A DNA stretch of 35,504 nucleotides, from contig RFVF01000050.1 in assembly GCA_009922615.1 (NCBI GenBank), forward strand, positions 1 to 35,504. The letters are read 5' to 3'. A program made the translations under genes and the position numbers. The notes under the pieces were generated by a model. That model had not been told where the DNA came from. It searched no databases and was given only the letters and a program-made list of their open reading frames with translations. The DNA comes from Pseudomonadota bacterium. Its GTDB lineage: Bacteria; Verrucomicrobiota; Verrucomicrobiia; Limisphaerales; SXTU01. Shown piece by piece: positions 17,019-23,465 of this stretch (position 1 is its first letter; each line of letters opens with the position of its first letter).

Positions 17019-20000
17019 ATGCTTCCCGTATCCTCCTACCGTCCCGGCCGCGAGATTGCGCGCGGCGGCATGGGCGCGGTGCTGGATGCCCGCGACCAGA
17101 AGCTCGGCCGCAGCGTGGCCATGAAGGTCATGCTCCGGCCCAATGCCAGCGCGGAGGAGCAGCAGCGTTTTCTCCAAGAGGCACGCGTGCTCGGCCAGCT
17201 CGCGCATCCCAACATCGTCCCCGTCCACGATCTGGGCACGGACGAGCGGGGGCGACTGTTTTACACCATGAAGCTCGTGCAGGGCGTGACGCTACACGAC
17301 CTGCTCCACAAGCTAAAGGCGGGGGATCCGGAAACGCTCGCCAAATATCCGTTGCCCACCTTGCTTACTGTTTTTCAGAAAGTCTGCGACGCCGTGGCCT
17401 TCGCGCATTCGCAGGGCATCATTCACCGCGATCTCAAGCCGCAAAACATCATGGTGGGCGCATTCGGCGAGGTACTCGTCATGGACTGGGGCTTGGCGAA
17501 ACTGCTGCCGGGCGGCACCGCCAGCGCAGCGCTCGCCGTGCCGATGCCGGGCACCGGGCCGACGGGTACAATCGTCGTTCAACCAGCCACGCCCAATCGC
17601 CCTGCTTCCCCCCCCGAGGCTGCGACACTCGCTTCGGTTGGCGAGCAGGCCACGGTCGTCAGCACGCAGGAAATTGTCGACGGCCCATCCGGGAGTGTCC
17701 CCACGCCACTCGTCTTCACCGGCTCGGAGACGCCGCCCACACCGCACCTTTCCGGCACGCAGCTCACCTTGGATGGCACGGTGATGGGCACACCCAACTA
17801 CATGTCGCCCGAGCAGGCCGACGGTCGGGTTACGGACTTGGACGAGCGTTCGGATGTTTATTCTCTCGGCGGCGTGCTCTACGCGGTGCTCACGCTGCAC
17901 CCGCCGGTCGAGGGTAAGGATGTGAGCGAACTGCTGAACCGAGTCCTCCGCGGTGACATCTCCGCGCCGACCGAGGCGACGCGGGGCAAGCAGCTCCCGC
18001 ACTTGCCGGAAGGCGCGGTGCCGGAAGCCCTCTCCGCCGTGGCGATGAAGGCACTCGCACTCAACCGCGAAGCGCGTTACCGCAGCGCCGGCGAACTGGC
18101 ACGGGACATCGCTGCGTATCAGGGCGGCTTCGCCACCGCCGCCGAGCAGGCGGGCGCACTCAAGCAACTGCGCTTGTTCATCGGCCGCCATCGAGCTTGG
18201 TCCGCCGCCGCGGCCGTCATGGCCTTGCTGACGGCCTTCTTCATATTTCGGTTGTCCCGTGAGCGGGATGTCGCCGAAACCAATGCTGACCTGGCCAGAC
18301 GCAACGCCGCCGAGGCCAAACGCAGCGAAGCCAAGGCCAAGACCAGCGAACAGGAGGCGCGACGGGCGGCCGAGAACCTCCGCCGCGAAAATGCCCGCGC
18401 CAACATCAACCTCGCCGACGCCGCACTCCTGGCAGCCGATCTACCCGGCATGGTGGCCGCGCTTGAGCGGTGCCCGGAGGACTTGCGTGACCAGCCGTGG
18501 GGTTACTTGGACGCGAAGCGCGATGAATCGCTGGGGGAACTGAAAGTTCCAGGCTTCGAGGTGCTCGCAGGCATAACGGCGGTGCCTGGCCGGCCAGGTG
18601 AGTTCGCGTTGGCGAATCCGAACGGCGATATCGCCTTCGTCACCGCCGCGAACGGCCAAGTGCTGCGCCAGTTCGCCACGAGCCATCGCGGCTACGTGCA
18701 ACTCGCCATTTCTGGCGACGGTCAGGTGCTCGGCGTGATGTCCGGCAACCGGCAGAAGGTCGAACTTTTCGAGGTGTCCACCGGCACCCGCTCGGCCACG
18801 GTGGTGCTGGCCGGCAATGGTGGACTAAACTTTGCTTTGAACCGCGATGGCTCGCGGCTCGTGGCCATCACGGGCACCACCAAGCCCGCGCCTTATAGTT
18901 TGGCCTGCCAGCTGTATAACACCCATACCGGCCGGCCACTCTGGAGCAGGGCGCGTGAGGGAGCGTTCAGCTCGGCGCTGATTCATCCGGACGGCACGCG
19001 GGTGCTGCTCGCCGGCAACGGAAATTGGCGCTCCTGGTGGCTGCTCAATGCCGCAGATGGCGCGGAGCTGGCGACCGTGCCGGTCTTTCCCGTCCTGCAA
19101 GCCCTCAGCCCAGACGGAAGGCTGCTGGCCATCGGCGCCGTCACGGGCGAGTTGTTACTGGTGAATCCCCTCACCGGTGTCGTGCTGCAACGGGCGCGGA
19201 TGCACACGGGCCAGCTCGCGGGCATTGCCTGGCTCGGCAAATTGTTGCTCACGCTGGGCAGCGACGGCAATTTTTCCGAACAGCGCTGGGTGTTCCGCCT
19301 ATGGGAGGGCGAGTTGCTCAATTCGCGCGGCAGTTTCTTCGGTGTGAAACAGGGCGTTACCGCGCCCGGCTGGAGCGCGAGCGAGAATGGCGAGCTGATT
19401 ATCACCGAGCGCCCACCGCGCCGCTGGAACCTCCCGGTGAATCGCGAGTTCGCAACCCTGTCCTCCACGGTTGCGGAGCAGGCGTGGGGTGGCGGGTTTC
19501 TCACGACCAACGTGGTGGTGGCCCGCAAGAATTTCGGCCTTACGCACTACTCGGTGGACGCGGGTCGCTTCACGGAACTGCCCAGCCCGAGGGGGTGGGA
19601 TTCGCTCCAGATCGTGGCTACTCACCCAGCGTCGGAACAGCTCGCCCTGGCTCGAAAAATCGGCAACGGGCCGAGCGAGGTGAAAACCTACCGCGCCTTG
19701 AACGGCCTGTTGTCCGAGCAGGCCAAAATCTCGCTGCCGGGACTAGCGAATCACCTCTCCTTCGACCGCACGGGCGAACGGCTCGCCGTAACGCATCGCG
19801 ACGGCACGCTCGAAGTCTTCGCCACGCACGACGGGCAGAGCCATTTTCGTCTGACTGGCGGTTACAGCCAAGCGGTGTTTGGCGCAGGCACAAACCTCCT
19901 CGCCCTTGAAGTCCGCCCGGGCAGCAATGCGCCCGAGCACCGGCTCGTGCGGATTGACACCACCGCAGGCCAGCCGCGTGGCAACTCGATTTCTGCGGTG

Positions 20001-20390
20001 CCGCTGACTTCGCTCGCCATCGCACCGGATGGTGGTTTGGTGGCATTCGGCAGCACCGACCGCCGCGTGTATGTCCTGCGCGCCAATGATTTCAGCACCG
20101 GCTGGGTCTTCCGCGCGCACGAGGCGGATGTTGGCGCGGTAGCATTCCACCCCACGCAGCCCATCATCGCCACCGCCTCGGTGGATGGCTCGGTCAAACT
20201 CTGGACCTACCGTGACCTGCGCCGCCCGCTCGCCACGTTCCTTGGCCTCGGCGGTGCGCCGGTGACGCTGTCGTTCAACCCCAACGGGACGTTGCTCTTC
20301 GTGGACGGTCAGGAACGCACCACGCGCGTCTTCGATGTCGCCCATGTGCGGGCACCCGCCGCAGGCGCAAAACCACTCGATGGCCGGTAA
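17019..20390 (+). CDS. Membrane Ser/Thr protein kinase with WD40-like repeats
   Basis: The product is 1123 aa. The kinase domain covers residues about 7-365: glycine loop IARGGMGAV (13-21), catalytic Lys36 (VAMKVM), HRDLKPQN with Asp138, and the metal-binding Asp156 in MDWGLAK, where DWG replaces DFG as in many planctomycete and verrucomicrobial kinases. Between DWG and GTPNYMSPEQ (256-265) lies an insertion of about 90 Pro/Thr-rich residues. One transmembrane helix spans about 393-411 (WSAAAAVMALLTAFFIFRL). A charged coiled coil follows (AEAKRSEAKAKTSEQEARRAA, 430-460). The outer part is a WD40-like beta-propeller with blade motifs such as LLAIGAVTGELLLVNPLTG and AVAFHPTQPIIATASVDGS, KLW. 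The layout suggests a sensor kinase whose propeller binds a ligand across the membrane. A TAGCCT hexamer lies 12 nt before the ATG. Confidence 0.93.
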   Translation: MLPVSSYRPGREIARGGMGAVLDARDQKLGRSVAMKVMLRPNASAEEQQRFLQEARVLGQLAHPNIVPVHDLGTDERGRLFYTMKLVQGVTLHDLLHKLKAGDPETLAKYPLPTLLTVFQKVCDAVAFAHSQGIIHRDLKPQNIMVGAFGEVLVMDWGLAKLLPGGTASAALAVPMPGTGPTGTIVVQPATPNRPASPPEAATLASVGEQATVVSTQEIVDGPSGSVPTPLVFTGSETPPTPHLSGTQLTLDGTVMGTPNYMSPEQADGRVTDLDERSDVYSLGGVLYAVLTLHPPVEGKDVSELLNRVLRGDISAPTEATRGKQLPHLPEGAVPEALSAVAMKALALNREARYRSAGELARDIAAYQGGFATAAEQAGALKQLRLFIGRHRAWSAAAAVMALLTAFFIFRLSRERDVAETNADLARRNAAEAKRSEAKAKTSEQEARRAAENLRRENARANINLADAALLAADLPGMVAALERCPEDLRDQPWGYLDAKRDESLGELKVPGFEVLAGITAVPGRPGEFALANPNGDIAFVTAANGQVLRQFATSHRGYVQLAISGDGQVLGVMSGNRQKVELFEVSTGTRSATVVLAGNGGLNFALNRDGSRLVAITGTTKPAPYSLACQLYNTHTGRPLWSRAREGAFSSALIHPDGTRVLLAGNGNWRSWWLLNAADGAELATVPVFPVLQALSPDGRLLAIGAVTGELLLVNPLTGVVLQRARMHTGQLAGIAWLGKLLLTLGSDGNFSEQRWVFRLWEGELLNSRGSFFGVKQGVTAPGWSASENGELIITERPPRRWNLPVNREFATLSSTVAEQAWGGGFLTTNVVVARKNFGLTHYSVDAGRFTELPSPRGWDSLQIVATHPASEQLALARKIGNGPSEVKTYRALNGLLSEQAKISLPGLANHLSFDRTGERLAVTHRDGTLEVFATHDGQSHFRLTGGYSQAVFGAGTNLLALEVRPGSNAPEHRLVRIDTTAGQPRGNSISAVPLTSLAIAPDGGLVAFGSTDRRVYVLRANDFSTGWVFRAHEADVGAVAFHPTQPIIATASVDGSVKLWTYRDLRRPLATFLGLGGAPVTLSFNPNGTLLFVDGQERTTRVFDVAHVRAPAAGAKPLDGR

Positions 20391-20588: not shown

Positions 20589-22397
20589 ATGACTGAGACC
20601 ATCGCTTTCAAACCGCCGGGCAGCTACACGTCCGCCTCGGTTCCCAAGCACGTCGTCCAGCAGCGCTTCCGCACGCCGAAGAAAAACATCCCGCAGACGC
20701 CCATTGAGCGGAACCACTTCCTCCACGTCATCCGCAACTACGTCGCCGAGTTCAACCCCGTGCCGCCCATGCCGGCGGACGAACTCAAGGTCCACGCCGA
20801 CCGCGTCATCGGCATACTCAAGTGCGACCCCATCTTCCGCGACTACATCGGCGTGCTCATCAACAACGAGATGTGGCGCGAGCAGATCGCGGCGGTGCCA
20901 TTCGAGCGCCGGCTGCTGCTGTTGCCCAAGTGCCTGCGCGTCGAAAGCAAGTGCCCCGCGCCGTTCGATGAGTTCGGCCTGCTGTGCAAACAATGCGGCC
21001 TCTGCACGATCCAAGACTTGCAAGCCGAGGCGGAGAAGCTCGGCTACGCGACGCTCGTGGCGGAAGGCTCGGCCATTGTCATGTCGCTGATCCAGACCGG
21101 GAAAATAGAGGCCATCGTCGGCGTCTCGTGCCTGAGCGTGCTGGAACGCGCGTTCCCCTACATGGAAGCCGCCGCCATCCCCGGCGTGGCGATTCCGTTG
21201 CTTCAGGACGACTGCATTGACACCACCGTGGACCTCGACTGGGTGTGGGATTACATCCACTTGACCAGCGATGACCAAACGCGCCGTCTCGACCTTGGCG
21301 CGCTGCGGGACGAGGTGGATTTCTGGTTCAGCCCCGTGGCGCTGGACACCATCATGGGCAACGCCGAGGGCGAGACCGAACGCATCGCGCGCGACTGGCT
21401 CATGCGTGCCGGCAAGCGCTGGCGCCCCTTCCTCGTCGTGTCCGCGTTTCAAGCGCTGCGCCGCGACCTCGGCAAGCCGCTGCCCGAGGACATCAAGAAA
21501 GTCGCCGTCGCCGTCGAGTGCTTCCACAAGGCCTCGCTCATCCACGACGACATCGAAGACAACGACGCGCTCCGCTACGGCGAGAAGACGCTGCACGAAG
21601 AACACGGCACCGCCGTCGCGCTCAACGTCGGCGACTTGCTCATCGGCGAAGGCTACCGCTTGCTCGCTGCGTGCAAGGCCAGCCCCGCCGCAAAGGCCGA
21701 GATGATTCGCGTGGCCAGCGAAGGCCAGCGCGAACTCTGCCGCGGCCAGGGCGCGGAACTTTGCTGGGCACGCAACCCGCAGTCGCTCACCCAGCACCAA
21801 GTGCTCGACATCTTCCGCAAGAAGACCGCGCCGGCCTTCGAGGTCGCGCTGCGCGTCGGCGCGCTCTACGCGGGCGTCGAGCAGCACGAAGAAGTCGAAG
21901 ACGTCCTGCACGTTTACAGCGAGGCGCTCGGCATCGCCTACCAGATTCGCGACGACCTCAGCGACCTTGGCGACACCGGCGAGACCAACGACATCGCCGG
22001 CCTGCGCCCGAGCCTCTTGCTCGCCGTCGCGCACGAGAAGGCGAAGGACGCCCAGAAGGAATTGCTCGCGAGCGTCTGGCGTCGCCAGCTCCCCGCCGAT
22101 GTCAGCGTGAAGGACATCGAAGCCATCTACGCCGAAGTCGGTGCCGACCTCCGCGCCAAGACCCTGCTCGAAACCTACAAGGAAGAAGCCATCCGCTGCC
22201 TGCGCGACTTGGAGAACCCGAACCTGAAAGGCCTGCTCCGCCGGGTGCTGGGCAAGATTTTCAACGACGTGGAAATCAAGGGCTGGTGCAAGGAACAGGA
22301 GCAGCTCAACGGCGTCCGCGATGGCGTGCGCCTCGAAGCCAGCGCACCTGCGCCCGAAGCCGCCCCGCGCGAACTCGACGTGGTGATGGCGAAGTGA
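20589..22397 (+). CDS. DUF116-polyprenyl synthase fusion protein
   Basis: The product is 602 aa. The N-terminal ~225 residues match DUF116: FERRLLLLPKCLRVESKC, then LLCKQCGLCTIQDLQAEAEKLGY with cysteines 115, 122, 133, 136 and 139 in a cluster able to bind metal or an Fe-S centre. GSAIVMSLIQTGKIEAIVGVSC follows. The C-terminal half is an all-helical trans-isoprenyl diphosphate synthase: GKRWRP (275-280), first aspartate-rich motif DDIED (320-324), second motif DDLSD (455-459). These bind Mg2+ and allylic plus isopentenyl diphosphates to build a linear prenyl chain. One open frame spans both parts, with no frameshift. The pairing implies that the DUF116 part acts on the prenyl product or senses something tied to it; that is inference. 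The chain length made is unknown. The downstream gap holds a REP-like element. Confidence 0.92.
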   Translation: MTETIAFKPPGSYTSASVPKHVVQQRFRTPKKNIPQTPIERNHFLHVIRNYVAEFNPVPPMPADELKVHADRVIGILKCDPIFRDYIGVLINNEMWREQIAAVPFERRLLLLPKCLRVESKCPAPFDEFGLLCKQCGLCTIQDLQAEAEKLGYATLVAEGSAIVMSLIQTGKIEAIVGVSCLSVLERAFPYMEAAAIPGVAIPLLQDDCIDTTVDLDWVWDYIHLTSDDQTRRLDLGALRDEVDFWFSPVALDTIMGNAEGETERIARDWLMRAGKRWRPFLVVSAFQALRRDLGKPLPEDIKKVAVAVECFHKASLIHDDIEDNDALRYGEKTLHEEHGTAVALNVGDLLIGEGYRLLAACKASPAAKAEMIRVASEGQRELCRGQGAELCWARNPQSLTQHQVLDIFRKKTAPAFEVALRVGALYAGVEQHEEVEDVLHVYSEALGIAYQIRDDLSDLGDTGETNDIAGLRPSLLLAVAHEKAKDAQKELLASVWRRQLPADVSVKDIEAIYAEVGADLRAKTLLETYKEEAIRCLRDLENPNLKGLLRRVLGKIFNDVEIKGWCKEQEQLNGVRDGVRLEASAPAPEAAPRELDVVMAK

Positions 22398-22500: not shown

Positions 22501-23370
22501 CTACCGCAGCTCCGCGTTGTCAATCAGCCGCGTCTTCCCGATGAACACCGCCAGCGCCATGTGCGTGCCGCGCGTGACGGCGGTGGCTGGTTGCAGTGTC
22601 TCGCCATCGAAGAACTCCACGTAGTCCAGCCGCGCGGCCGGTTGCGTGGTGATGAGCGCGGCGATTTCCCTTTTCAAAACGTCGGCGTAATTCGGCGCGC
22701 GTGAGCTGAGGACGATTTCCTTCGCCAGCTTCAGCGCACGAAAAAGAATCGTCGCCTGCGGGCGCTCCTCGGCGGAGAGGTATTTGTTCCGTGAGCTCAT
22801 CGCGAGGCCGTCCTTCTCGCGACGCGTTGGCGCGACGACGAACTTGAGCGGGAAGTTCAGGTCCCGCGTCATGCGGCGGAGGATGGCGGCCTGCTGCCAG
22901 TCCTTTGCGCCGAACACCGCCACTTCCGGCAGCACGAGGTTGAAGAGCTTCGCGACGACCGTCGTGACGCCGGGGAAGTGCGTCGGACGTGAACCGCCCT
23001 CCATGCCCTGCGAGAGCCTTTCCTCCACGACGTAGGTGCTGTAGCCGCCGGAGTCGCGGCCCGGATACATCTCGGCATCGGACGGCAGGAACAACACCTC
23101 CACGCCGGCCTTGCGGCAAAGCTGCGTGTCTCGCTCCAGGTCCCGCGGGTAGGCGGACAAGTCCTCCGTCGGTGCGAACTGCGTCGGGTTCACGTAGATG
23201 CTGGCGACGACGATGCCACGCTTGCCCACGAGCCGCCGAGCACGGCTCACGAGGCTGAGGTGGCCGTCGTGCAGGTAACCCATCGTGGGCACGATGCCGA
23301 CACGTATGCCCGCACGACGCCAGCGGAGGGCGAGGCGTTGCATGGCGGCAGCGGAAGTAACGATGCGCAT
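22501..23370 (-). CDS. panC: Pantothenate synthetase
   Basis: The product is 289 aa from the ATG at 23370 (MRIVTSAAAMQRLALRW). It joins pantoate and beta-alanine with ATP to make pantothenate, the coenzyme A precursor. The nucleotide-binding motif is PTMGYLHDGHLSL with His34 and His37 of the HIGH-like set. VNPTQFAPTEDLSAYPRDLERD, then FGAKDWQQAAILRRM and SSRNKYLSAEER, are the other family blocks and hold pantoate- and ATP-binding residues. FGAKDWQQ is a small change from the common FGEKDFQQ. No other pan gene is in the window. The stop lies three bases from the palindromic element. Confidence 0.96.
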   Translation of the reverse strand: MRIVTSAAAMQRLALRWRRAGIRVGIVPTMGYLHDGHLSLVSRARRLVGKRGIVVASIYVNPTQFAPTEDLSAYPRDLERDTQLCRKAGVEVLFLPSDAEMYPGRDSGGYSTYVVEERLSQGMEGGSRPTHFPGVTTVVAKLFNLVLPEVAVFGAKDWQQAAILRRMTRDLNFPLKFVVAPTRREKDGLAMSSRNKYLSAEERPQATILFRALKLAKEIVLSSRAPNYADVLKREIAALITTQPAARLDYVEFFDGETLQPATAVTRGTHMALAVFIGKTRLIDNAELR

Positions 23371-23465
23371 GGGCGCGAAGTGTAAGCGGCCTCGGAACAA
23401 AAATGGAGAAGTTTCCGGCTCGCATGGAGTTGCCCGCCGCCTTGCTGCGCGCCTACATTGGCCCC

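Follow-up and report, generated by a model that had tools for sequence, protein, structure and literature searches.

Across 115 genomes from a single phylum, the Verrucomicrobiota, a gene that joins a DUF116 domain to a polyprenyl diphosphate synthase has been co-inherited with two other protein families, one of radical-SAM and one of squalene-cyclase-like type. We studied this fusion from its copy in the window, by which we mean the whole 35,504-nucleotide stretch of DNA analysed, where positions 20589-22397 of the plus strand form one open reading frame with an ATG start, encoding 602 residues (the stop codon is counted in the span). Judged from sequence comparisons and gene context, the fusion may be a redox-coupled, Fe-S-linked enzyme that acts on prenyl diphosphates in an uncharacterised pathway to cyclic terpenoids, an explanation that we favour tentatively and would give slightly less than an even chance. 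The fusion itself is already in print, and what is new here is its pathway setting and altered active site, neither of which was found in the literature searched, a body of text that most subscription papers lie outside. DUF116 gains from this a defined partner set and a testable reaction.

The fusion gene and its two halves

A Pfam scan of the protein at E <= 1 returned PF01976 and PF00348 and no third family. Both passed their Pfam gathering scores by a wide margin, with 122.5 bits against a cut-off of 25 for the DUF116 half and 155.5 bits against 27 for the synthase half (polyprenyl_synt). An earlier, sequence-only reading of this DNA had described one 602-residue frame joining DUF116 to a prenyl synthase, which the reading frame and the Pfam matches bear out, and the positions that it gave for five cysteines (115, 122, 133, 136 and 139) and for the DDIED (320-324) and DDLSD (455-459) motifs are exact. 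It had placed DUF116 over residues 40-225; a significant PF01976 match is indeed there, but it begins at residue 77 rather than 40. The features of the gene are as follows.

20589..22397, plus strand: DUF116-polyprenyl synthase fusion gene (open reading frame and Pfam)
20700..20819, plus strand: N-terminal helical extension, residues 38-77 (helices H38-55 and H63-77 predicted in the model)
20817..21254, plus strand: DUF116 domain, residues 77-222 (PF01976, E 1.4e-35)
20931..21005, plus strand: cysteine cluster C115, C122, C133, C136 and C139, residues 115-139 (kept in 34/34 rows)
21129..21131, plus strand: invariant Cys181 (34-row alignment and 80 relatives)
21213..21215, plus strand: invariant Cys209 (34-row alignment and 80 relatives)
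21381..22103, plus strand: polyprenyl synthase domain, residues 265-505 (PF00348, E 2e-45)
21531..21536, plus strand: Ala315-Ser316, 5 and 4 residues ahead of the first Asp motif (34/34 rows, 80/80 relatives)
21546..21560, plus strand: first Asp-rich motif DDIED, residues 320-324 (alignment)
21576..21578, plus strand: Tyr330, where RRG has its second Arg (Tyr in 33/34 diverse rows, Asn in one; 80/80 relatives)
21951..21965, plus strand: second Asp-rich motif DDLSD, residues 455-459 (alignment)
21966..22007, plus strand: shortened stretch, residues 460-473, at the site of the LGK loop of the references (alignment with seven reference synthases)

To our knowledge, DUF116 has no settled function. 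PMC5898192 describes the family (PF01976, COG1852, arCOG02078) as having a CxxCxxC motif and further conserved cysteines, and proposes a flavodoxin-like fold and an electron-transfer role. The fusion shares the cysteine pattern reported there, together with a PF01976 match well over the cut-off; whereas archaeal DUF116 proteins are described in that paper as having two N-terminal membrane spans, the fusion has a short helical N-terminus and carries the synthase after DUF116. Seven cysteines in all are identical in every row of the 34-row alignment (30 fusions and 4 stand-alone DUF116 proteins), C181 and C209 being two more invariant positions beyond the five recognised earlier, and each of the seven is present in 80/80 relatives with the exception of C136 (79/80). 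The model of the DUF116 half (mean pLDDT 86.0) has strands alternating with helices, and it matched no PDB structure at E <= 0.001 and none in the viral library. The weak top rows of that structure search include a response regulator, in agreement with the flavodoxin-like proposal (PMC5898192), and are too weak to rely on; the DUF116 profile searched against PDB sequences gave a best E of 0.97. Two further ideas about this half were rejected, namely kinship with the ferredoxin partner described below (hhalign probability 5.3 over 17 columns) and a role as an IspH substitute, the latter because the window's genome has two IspH-family (LytB) genes over the cut-off (G000:C1:80782-81588 and G000:C1:41310-42335).

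The full-length model of the fusion (mean pLDDT 78.8) matches prenyl synthases in structure, with 1wy0 at the top. With the trans-polyprenyl diphosphate synthases (IspA, IspB and GGPP synthase) the synthase half shares the PF00348 family and fold, both Asp motifs, GKRxRP and KT, but it differs from them in having Tyr for the second Arg of RRG, in having no LGK loop and in forming a separate clade. It also falls below every NCBIfam cut-off (best 138.6 against 450). The stretch at residues 460-473 has a constant length in 79/81 rows and is one or two residues shorter in the other two; among nine fusion rows shown, the LGK loop is missing in eight, and the ninth (L128) has residues there with no Gly-Lys. 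Other synthases of the same organisms behave differently. The 17 fusion genomes of our phylum sample hold 23 further synthases, 21 of which were read, with the loop readable in 19, and these non-fusion enzymes have Arg-Arg in 21/21 and Gly-Lys in 18/19 (not L158). We take the second Arg of RRG to contact IPP and the loop Lys to contact the allylic diphosphate, on the pattern of E. coli FPP synthase. The sequence-only reading had called both domains complete, which is too strong for a synthase half that has lost two basic features of its family.

Much of the active site is nevertheless retained. The first Asp motif is kept in 34/34 diverse rows and both motifs in 80/80 relatives; in the second motif the diverse rows have D455 in 32, D456 in 33 and D459 in 31 of 34, the remaining positions being an Asn once, a Glu twice and otherwise gaps in one row. 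Lys276 is kept in 33/34 diverse rows, and R279, H313 and K412 in 34/34. Since K276, R279 and H313, which we assume to be IPP-side residues, are kept, the IPP site of the synthase half would be changed rather than erased and would still allow the use of IPP. We built a tree of 37 rows from seven references and 30 fusion rows, having left out four of the 34 fusion rows for being short; in it the fusion synthase halves form a clade apart from the references, with several long branches and unsure deep joins. The other two synthases of the window's genome join IspB (100/97) and IspA (99/98).

A scan of a species-genome collection gave 443 stretches encoding a relative of the fusion, of which we analysed the best 80 (69-97% identity); the remaining 363 may include plain synthases. 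The fusion is present in all of these best 80 of 443. Of the 80, 79 could be read over at least 540 residues (L068 is cut by a contig end), and a single stop codon interrupts the frame of one, L044. Conservation is higher in DUF116 (median identity of 90.4% to the window's copy) than in the synthase half (75.2%), and comparisons with seven relatives gave dN/dS values of 0.005-0.070 over DUF116 and 0.025-0.208 over the synthase half. Both halves are under strong purifying selection, and the earlier judgement that the gene is not decayed holds.

It could be argued that the fusion works as a conventional polyprenyl diphosphate synthase of medium or long chain length, in which DUF116 does no more than sense the redox or metal state and gate synthesis, with the cyclase using the product, and the kept Asp motifs together with K276, R279, H313 and K412 speak for this. 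So does Ala315-Ser316, which resembles IspB (an aromatic residue occupies this site in FPP and GGPP synthases); by the chain-length rule for the family, such a pattern would let the fusion, should it elongate chains at all, go beyond C20. However, the second RRG Arg and the LGK loop are gone from the fusion and kept in other synthases of the same genomes, and it would be unusual for a mere regulator to be better conserved than the enzyme that it regulates. Gating by redox or metal state is not favoured by the present data over a direct electron-donating role, and we regard an ordinary gated synthase as doubtful, if still a credible contender.

Gene partners in Verrucomicrobiota

We searched the 115 Verrucomicrobiota genomes for DUF116, the radical SAM protein, the cyclase and PF00494. 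DUF116 occurs in 22 of them; mapping which genomes hold the fusion, as the sequence-only reading had suggested, gave 17/115, each with a long fused frame (G098 also has a stand-alone copy). The radical SAM protein, at E <= 1e-140, is found in 16/17 fusion genomes and 0/98 others. The one fusion genome without it, G114, has the cyclase, and one further radical-SAM match among those listed (1e-30 or better) lies in G055 at E 4.5e-45. The cyclase, at 233 bits or more, is present in 17/17 fusion genomes (as four pieces in G053) and 0/98 others, the best match in these other genomes being 89 bits among the matches listed (1e-20 or better). Fisher values of 1e-18 for the radical SAM protein and 1e-20 for the cyclase are inflated by shared ancestry and overstate the association. 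The 17 genomes span 12 families, and within one genus (g23) the fusion, the radical SAM protein and the cyclase are all present in G029 and all absent from G003 and G032.

Stand-alone short DUF116 frames were seen in four genomes (G003, G032, G095 and G110). In three of the four loci the gene is divergent from one for a CrtI-family (phytoene desaturase family) oxidoreductase (L112:9331-11399, L115:9220-11311 and L127:8265-10330); one of these three oxidoreductases was scanned and scored 446.4 bits against a cut-off of 238.1, and PF00494 is absent from the genomes of these loci (G095, G003 and G110). The DUF116 match at L087 (G032) contains one in-frame stop, as does a weak partial match at L105 (G094).

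Among relatives the fusion is often part of an operon. At locus L048 one strand carries, in order, a GcvH-like gene, a CobW-type GTPase, an unassigned frame, a [4Fe-4S] ferredoxin, the radical SAM gene, the fusion, a prenyltransferase-type toroid and the squalene-cyclase-like gene, and upstream, on the opposite strand, lies a NifS-like cysteine desulfurase. The listed reading frames overlap by 4 bases at three junctions, their start codons having been set mechanically, and where relatives differ in sequence the codon phase of the differences is consistent with the frames upstream of the fusion. Plus-strand frames upstream of the GcvH-like gene were set aside, as a minus-strand gene fits the codon phase equally well and it is that strand that matches the NifS-like desulfurase. 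The unassigned frame and the ferredoxin are a single gene in distant loci. The N-terminal part of the ferredoxin partner (CxC...C...ACxPR) may resemble HdrA, but the HdrA rows recovered align solely with the ferredoxin part of that protein. The GcvH-like protein (L048:1837-2301) aligns with the lipoyl-lysine region of GcvH, with the Lys kept, and scores 58.6 bits against 22.2 for PF01597 but 60.6 against 115.85 for NCBIfam gcvH; with the adjoining NifS-like gene it may point to sulfur or lipoyl chemistry.

Counting only loci with enough flank among the 80 closer ones, we found the radical SAM gene in 35/69, the ferredoxin in 37/62, the toroid in 38/64, the cyclase in 13/56, the GcvH-like gene in 29/55, CobW in 26/55 (25 upstream on the same strand) and NifS in 18/53 (17 upstream on the other strand). 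No partner gene lies nearby in 27 of the 80, nor in the window itself. In the 16 other fusion loci of the phylum sample the corresponding numbers are 12 for the radical SAM gene, 13 for the ferredoxin, 13 for the toroid and 9 for the cyclase. The sequence-only reading had proposed a role in isoprenoid-linked chemistry, possibly involving redox or metal state, and the company that the gene keeps, isoprenoid-type genes and genes for Fe-S proteins, makes this a sound direction; what does not stand is the picture of a plain, complete prenyl synthase, with Tyr330 in place and the LGK loop missing.

The operons of several distant carriers (L110, L111, L116, L122, L123, L125 and L126) also hold genes for a NapH-like membrane protein, a polyferredoxin and PQQ_2-type propellers, which gives the impression of an electron-transfer chain linked to the pathway. 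It may be, then, that the pathway yields a prenylated or cyclised redox lipid, such as a quinone-like carrier, used by these proteins in some lineages. The NapH-like protein and polyferredoxin occur in 7, and the propellers in 12, of the 16 other fusion loci, in keeping with this; at the 80 closer loci, however, there was no hit to the NapH-like or polyferredoxin queries, hits to the two propeller queries numbered 2 and 6, and no head-group gene was seen. A redox lipid as the end product is distinctly unlikely on this showing.

In the window's own genome (G000) the partner genes are scattered on contigs other than that of the fusion. Contig C290 has the ferredoxin and the start of the radical SAM gene, within which the contig ends, and more radical-SAM pieces lie on C14 (with two in-frame stops, perhaps a second, damaged copy) and C109. 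NifS and the cyclase are about 1.1 kb apart on C266, and the toroid is on C1. The radical-SAM pieces, all at contig ends, are:

C14:77-937, radical-SAM piece
C290:27306-28244, radical-SAM piece
C109:3460-3744, radical-SAM piece

The partner cyclase and the proposed pathway

The partner cyclase scores 118.2 bits against a cut-off of 26.1 for PF13243, and its nearest solved relative is the squalene-hopene cyclase 1gsz (E 6.6e-40). A DxDD motif (PDADD) is present in 10/10 partner cyclases read and in 0/14 toroids. The partner cyclase resembles squalene-hopene cyclase in family, motif and nearest structure, but it lies far below the NCBIfam hopene_cyclase cut-off (92.5 against 431.1 bits), and 12 of its 17 carriers have no PF00494 enzyme to make squalene. 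PF00494 was found in 5/17 fusion genomes (G000, G066, G007, G020 and G053) and 25/98 others, showing no link with the fusion across the 115 genomes (p 0.77); in the 12 remaining fusion genomes the cyclase is present with no recognised squalene/phytoene synthase of this family. These 12 are listed as 92-97% complete, at which level one gap would be possible and twelve hardly, so the absence is hardly an artefact. Weaker cyclase matches occur in six non-fusion genomes and in that of the window, and all seven have PF00494.

A bolder version of our explanation is that the fusion replaces squalene synthase in an Fe-S-dependent manner, reductively coupling two prenyl diphosphates with electrons from DUF116 and feeding the SHC-family cyclase, which would amount to a squalene-synthase-free route to polycyclic terpenoids in Verrucomicrobiota. 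Such a role would be in keeping with the altered IPP side and the extra cysteine domain of the fusion, with its cyclase partner and with the lack of PF00494 in 12 of the 17 genomes. The fusion is not a member of the squalene synthase family, having no PF00494 match at E <= 1, and it is only if it does replace squalene synthase that a likeness would arise, in that each would be a class I enzyme, with a pair of Asp motifs, supplying a cyclase of the squalene-cyclase type. We consider such a replacement unlikely. If the cyclase substrate does arise without squalene synthase, then cyclic terpenoids, possibly lipid biomarkers among them, would be missed by surveys based on squalene synthase.

A different possibility is that the cyclase acts directly on a prenyl diphosphate or prenylated acceptor supplied by the fusion, with no tail-to-tail coupling. 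The profile of the cyclase picks up smaller SQHop_cyclase_C proteins as well (514-539 residues, E 7.7e-15 and weaker), so a prenyl-diphosphate substrate may be possible for it, and the 12 genomes without PF00494 are in line with this. Set against it are the finding that squalene-hopene cyclase is the best solved relative of the cyclase and the fact that the redox domain and changed IPP side of the fusion would be left unexplained, and we find it improbable. That DUF116 is merely a structural domain (e.g. a zinc site) with no catalytic part is highly improbable given its seven invariant cysteines and the several Fe-S proteins in the gene setting, although a cofactor is seen in no solved relative.

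Returning to the redox-coupled, Fe-S-linked enzyme that we favour, we infer both the order of the steps and each chemical step in what follows. An ordinary synthase of the cell would make a short prenyl diphosphate. The DUF116 half of the fusion would bind Fe-S or another metal and take electrons from the ferredoxin, and the class I site of the synthase half would ionise the prenyl diphosphate made by the other synthase; with the IPP-side Arg gone, the fusion might join or reduce the prenyl diphosphate rather than carry out plain IPP addition. The radical SAM protein and the toroid would act on its substrate or product, before or after the fusion, and the DxDD cyclase would close the rings. 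Counting against this explanation are the loci without partners, G114 with no radical SAM protein, the presence of PF00494 in five of the 17 genomes and the retention of K276, R279 and H313 on the IPP side.

Prior reports and further occurrences

The fusion of DUF116 to a polyprenyl synthetase in some bacteria, with Psta_0175 of Pirellula staleyi as the example, is described in PMC5898192, and its occurrence in Planctomycetota rests on that source. Within the literature searched, PMC5898192 is the only paper to name COG1852, arCOG02078, pfam01976 or PF01976, and none mentions polyprenyl alongside both squalene cyclase and radical SAM. Few genes make up the core set, namely those for the ferredoxin, radical SAM protein, fusion, toroid and cyclase, and the relatives that carry the fusion include an isolate record, Chthoniobacter flavus Ellin428 (L051), which makes bench study feasible.

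In a plasmid collection, 95 records match the fusion, none of them over as much as 80% of its length, and each of the 10 rows listed begins at residue 216 or later and so falls in the synthase half. Several metagenome bins (L006, L008, L010, L012 and L013) bear titles that say Proteobacteria, Klebsiella pneumoniae or Akkermansia muciniphila and have fusions 85-96% identical to that of the window; their taxon labels look wrong. The neighbours of the fusion in the window have no apparent link to it, being a gene for a long kinase-like protein with a repeat-like C-terminal part, as read from its sequence (17019-20390, plus strand), and panC (22501-23400, minus strand; 284.4 bits against a cut-off of 212.75).
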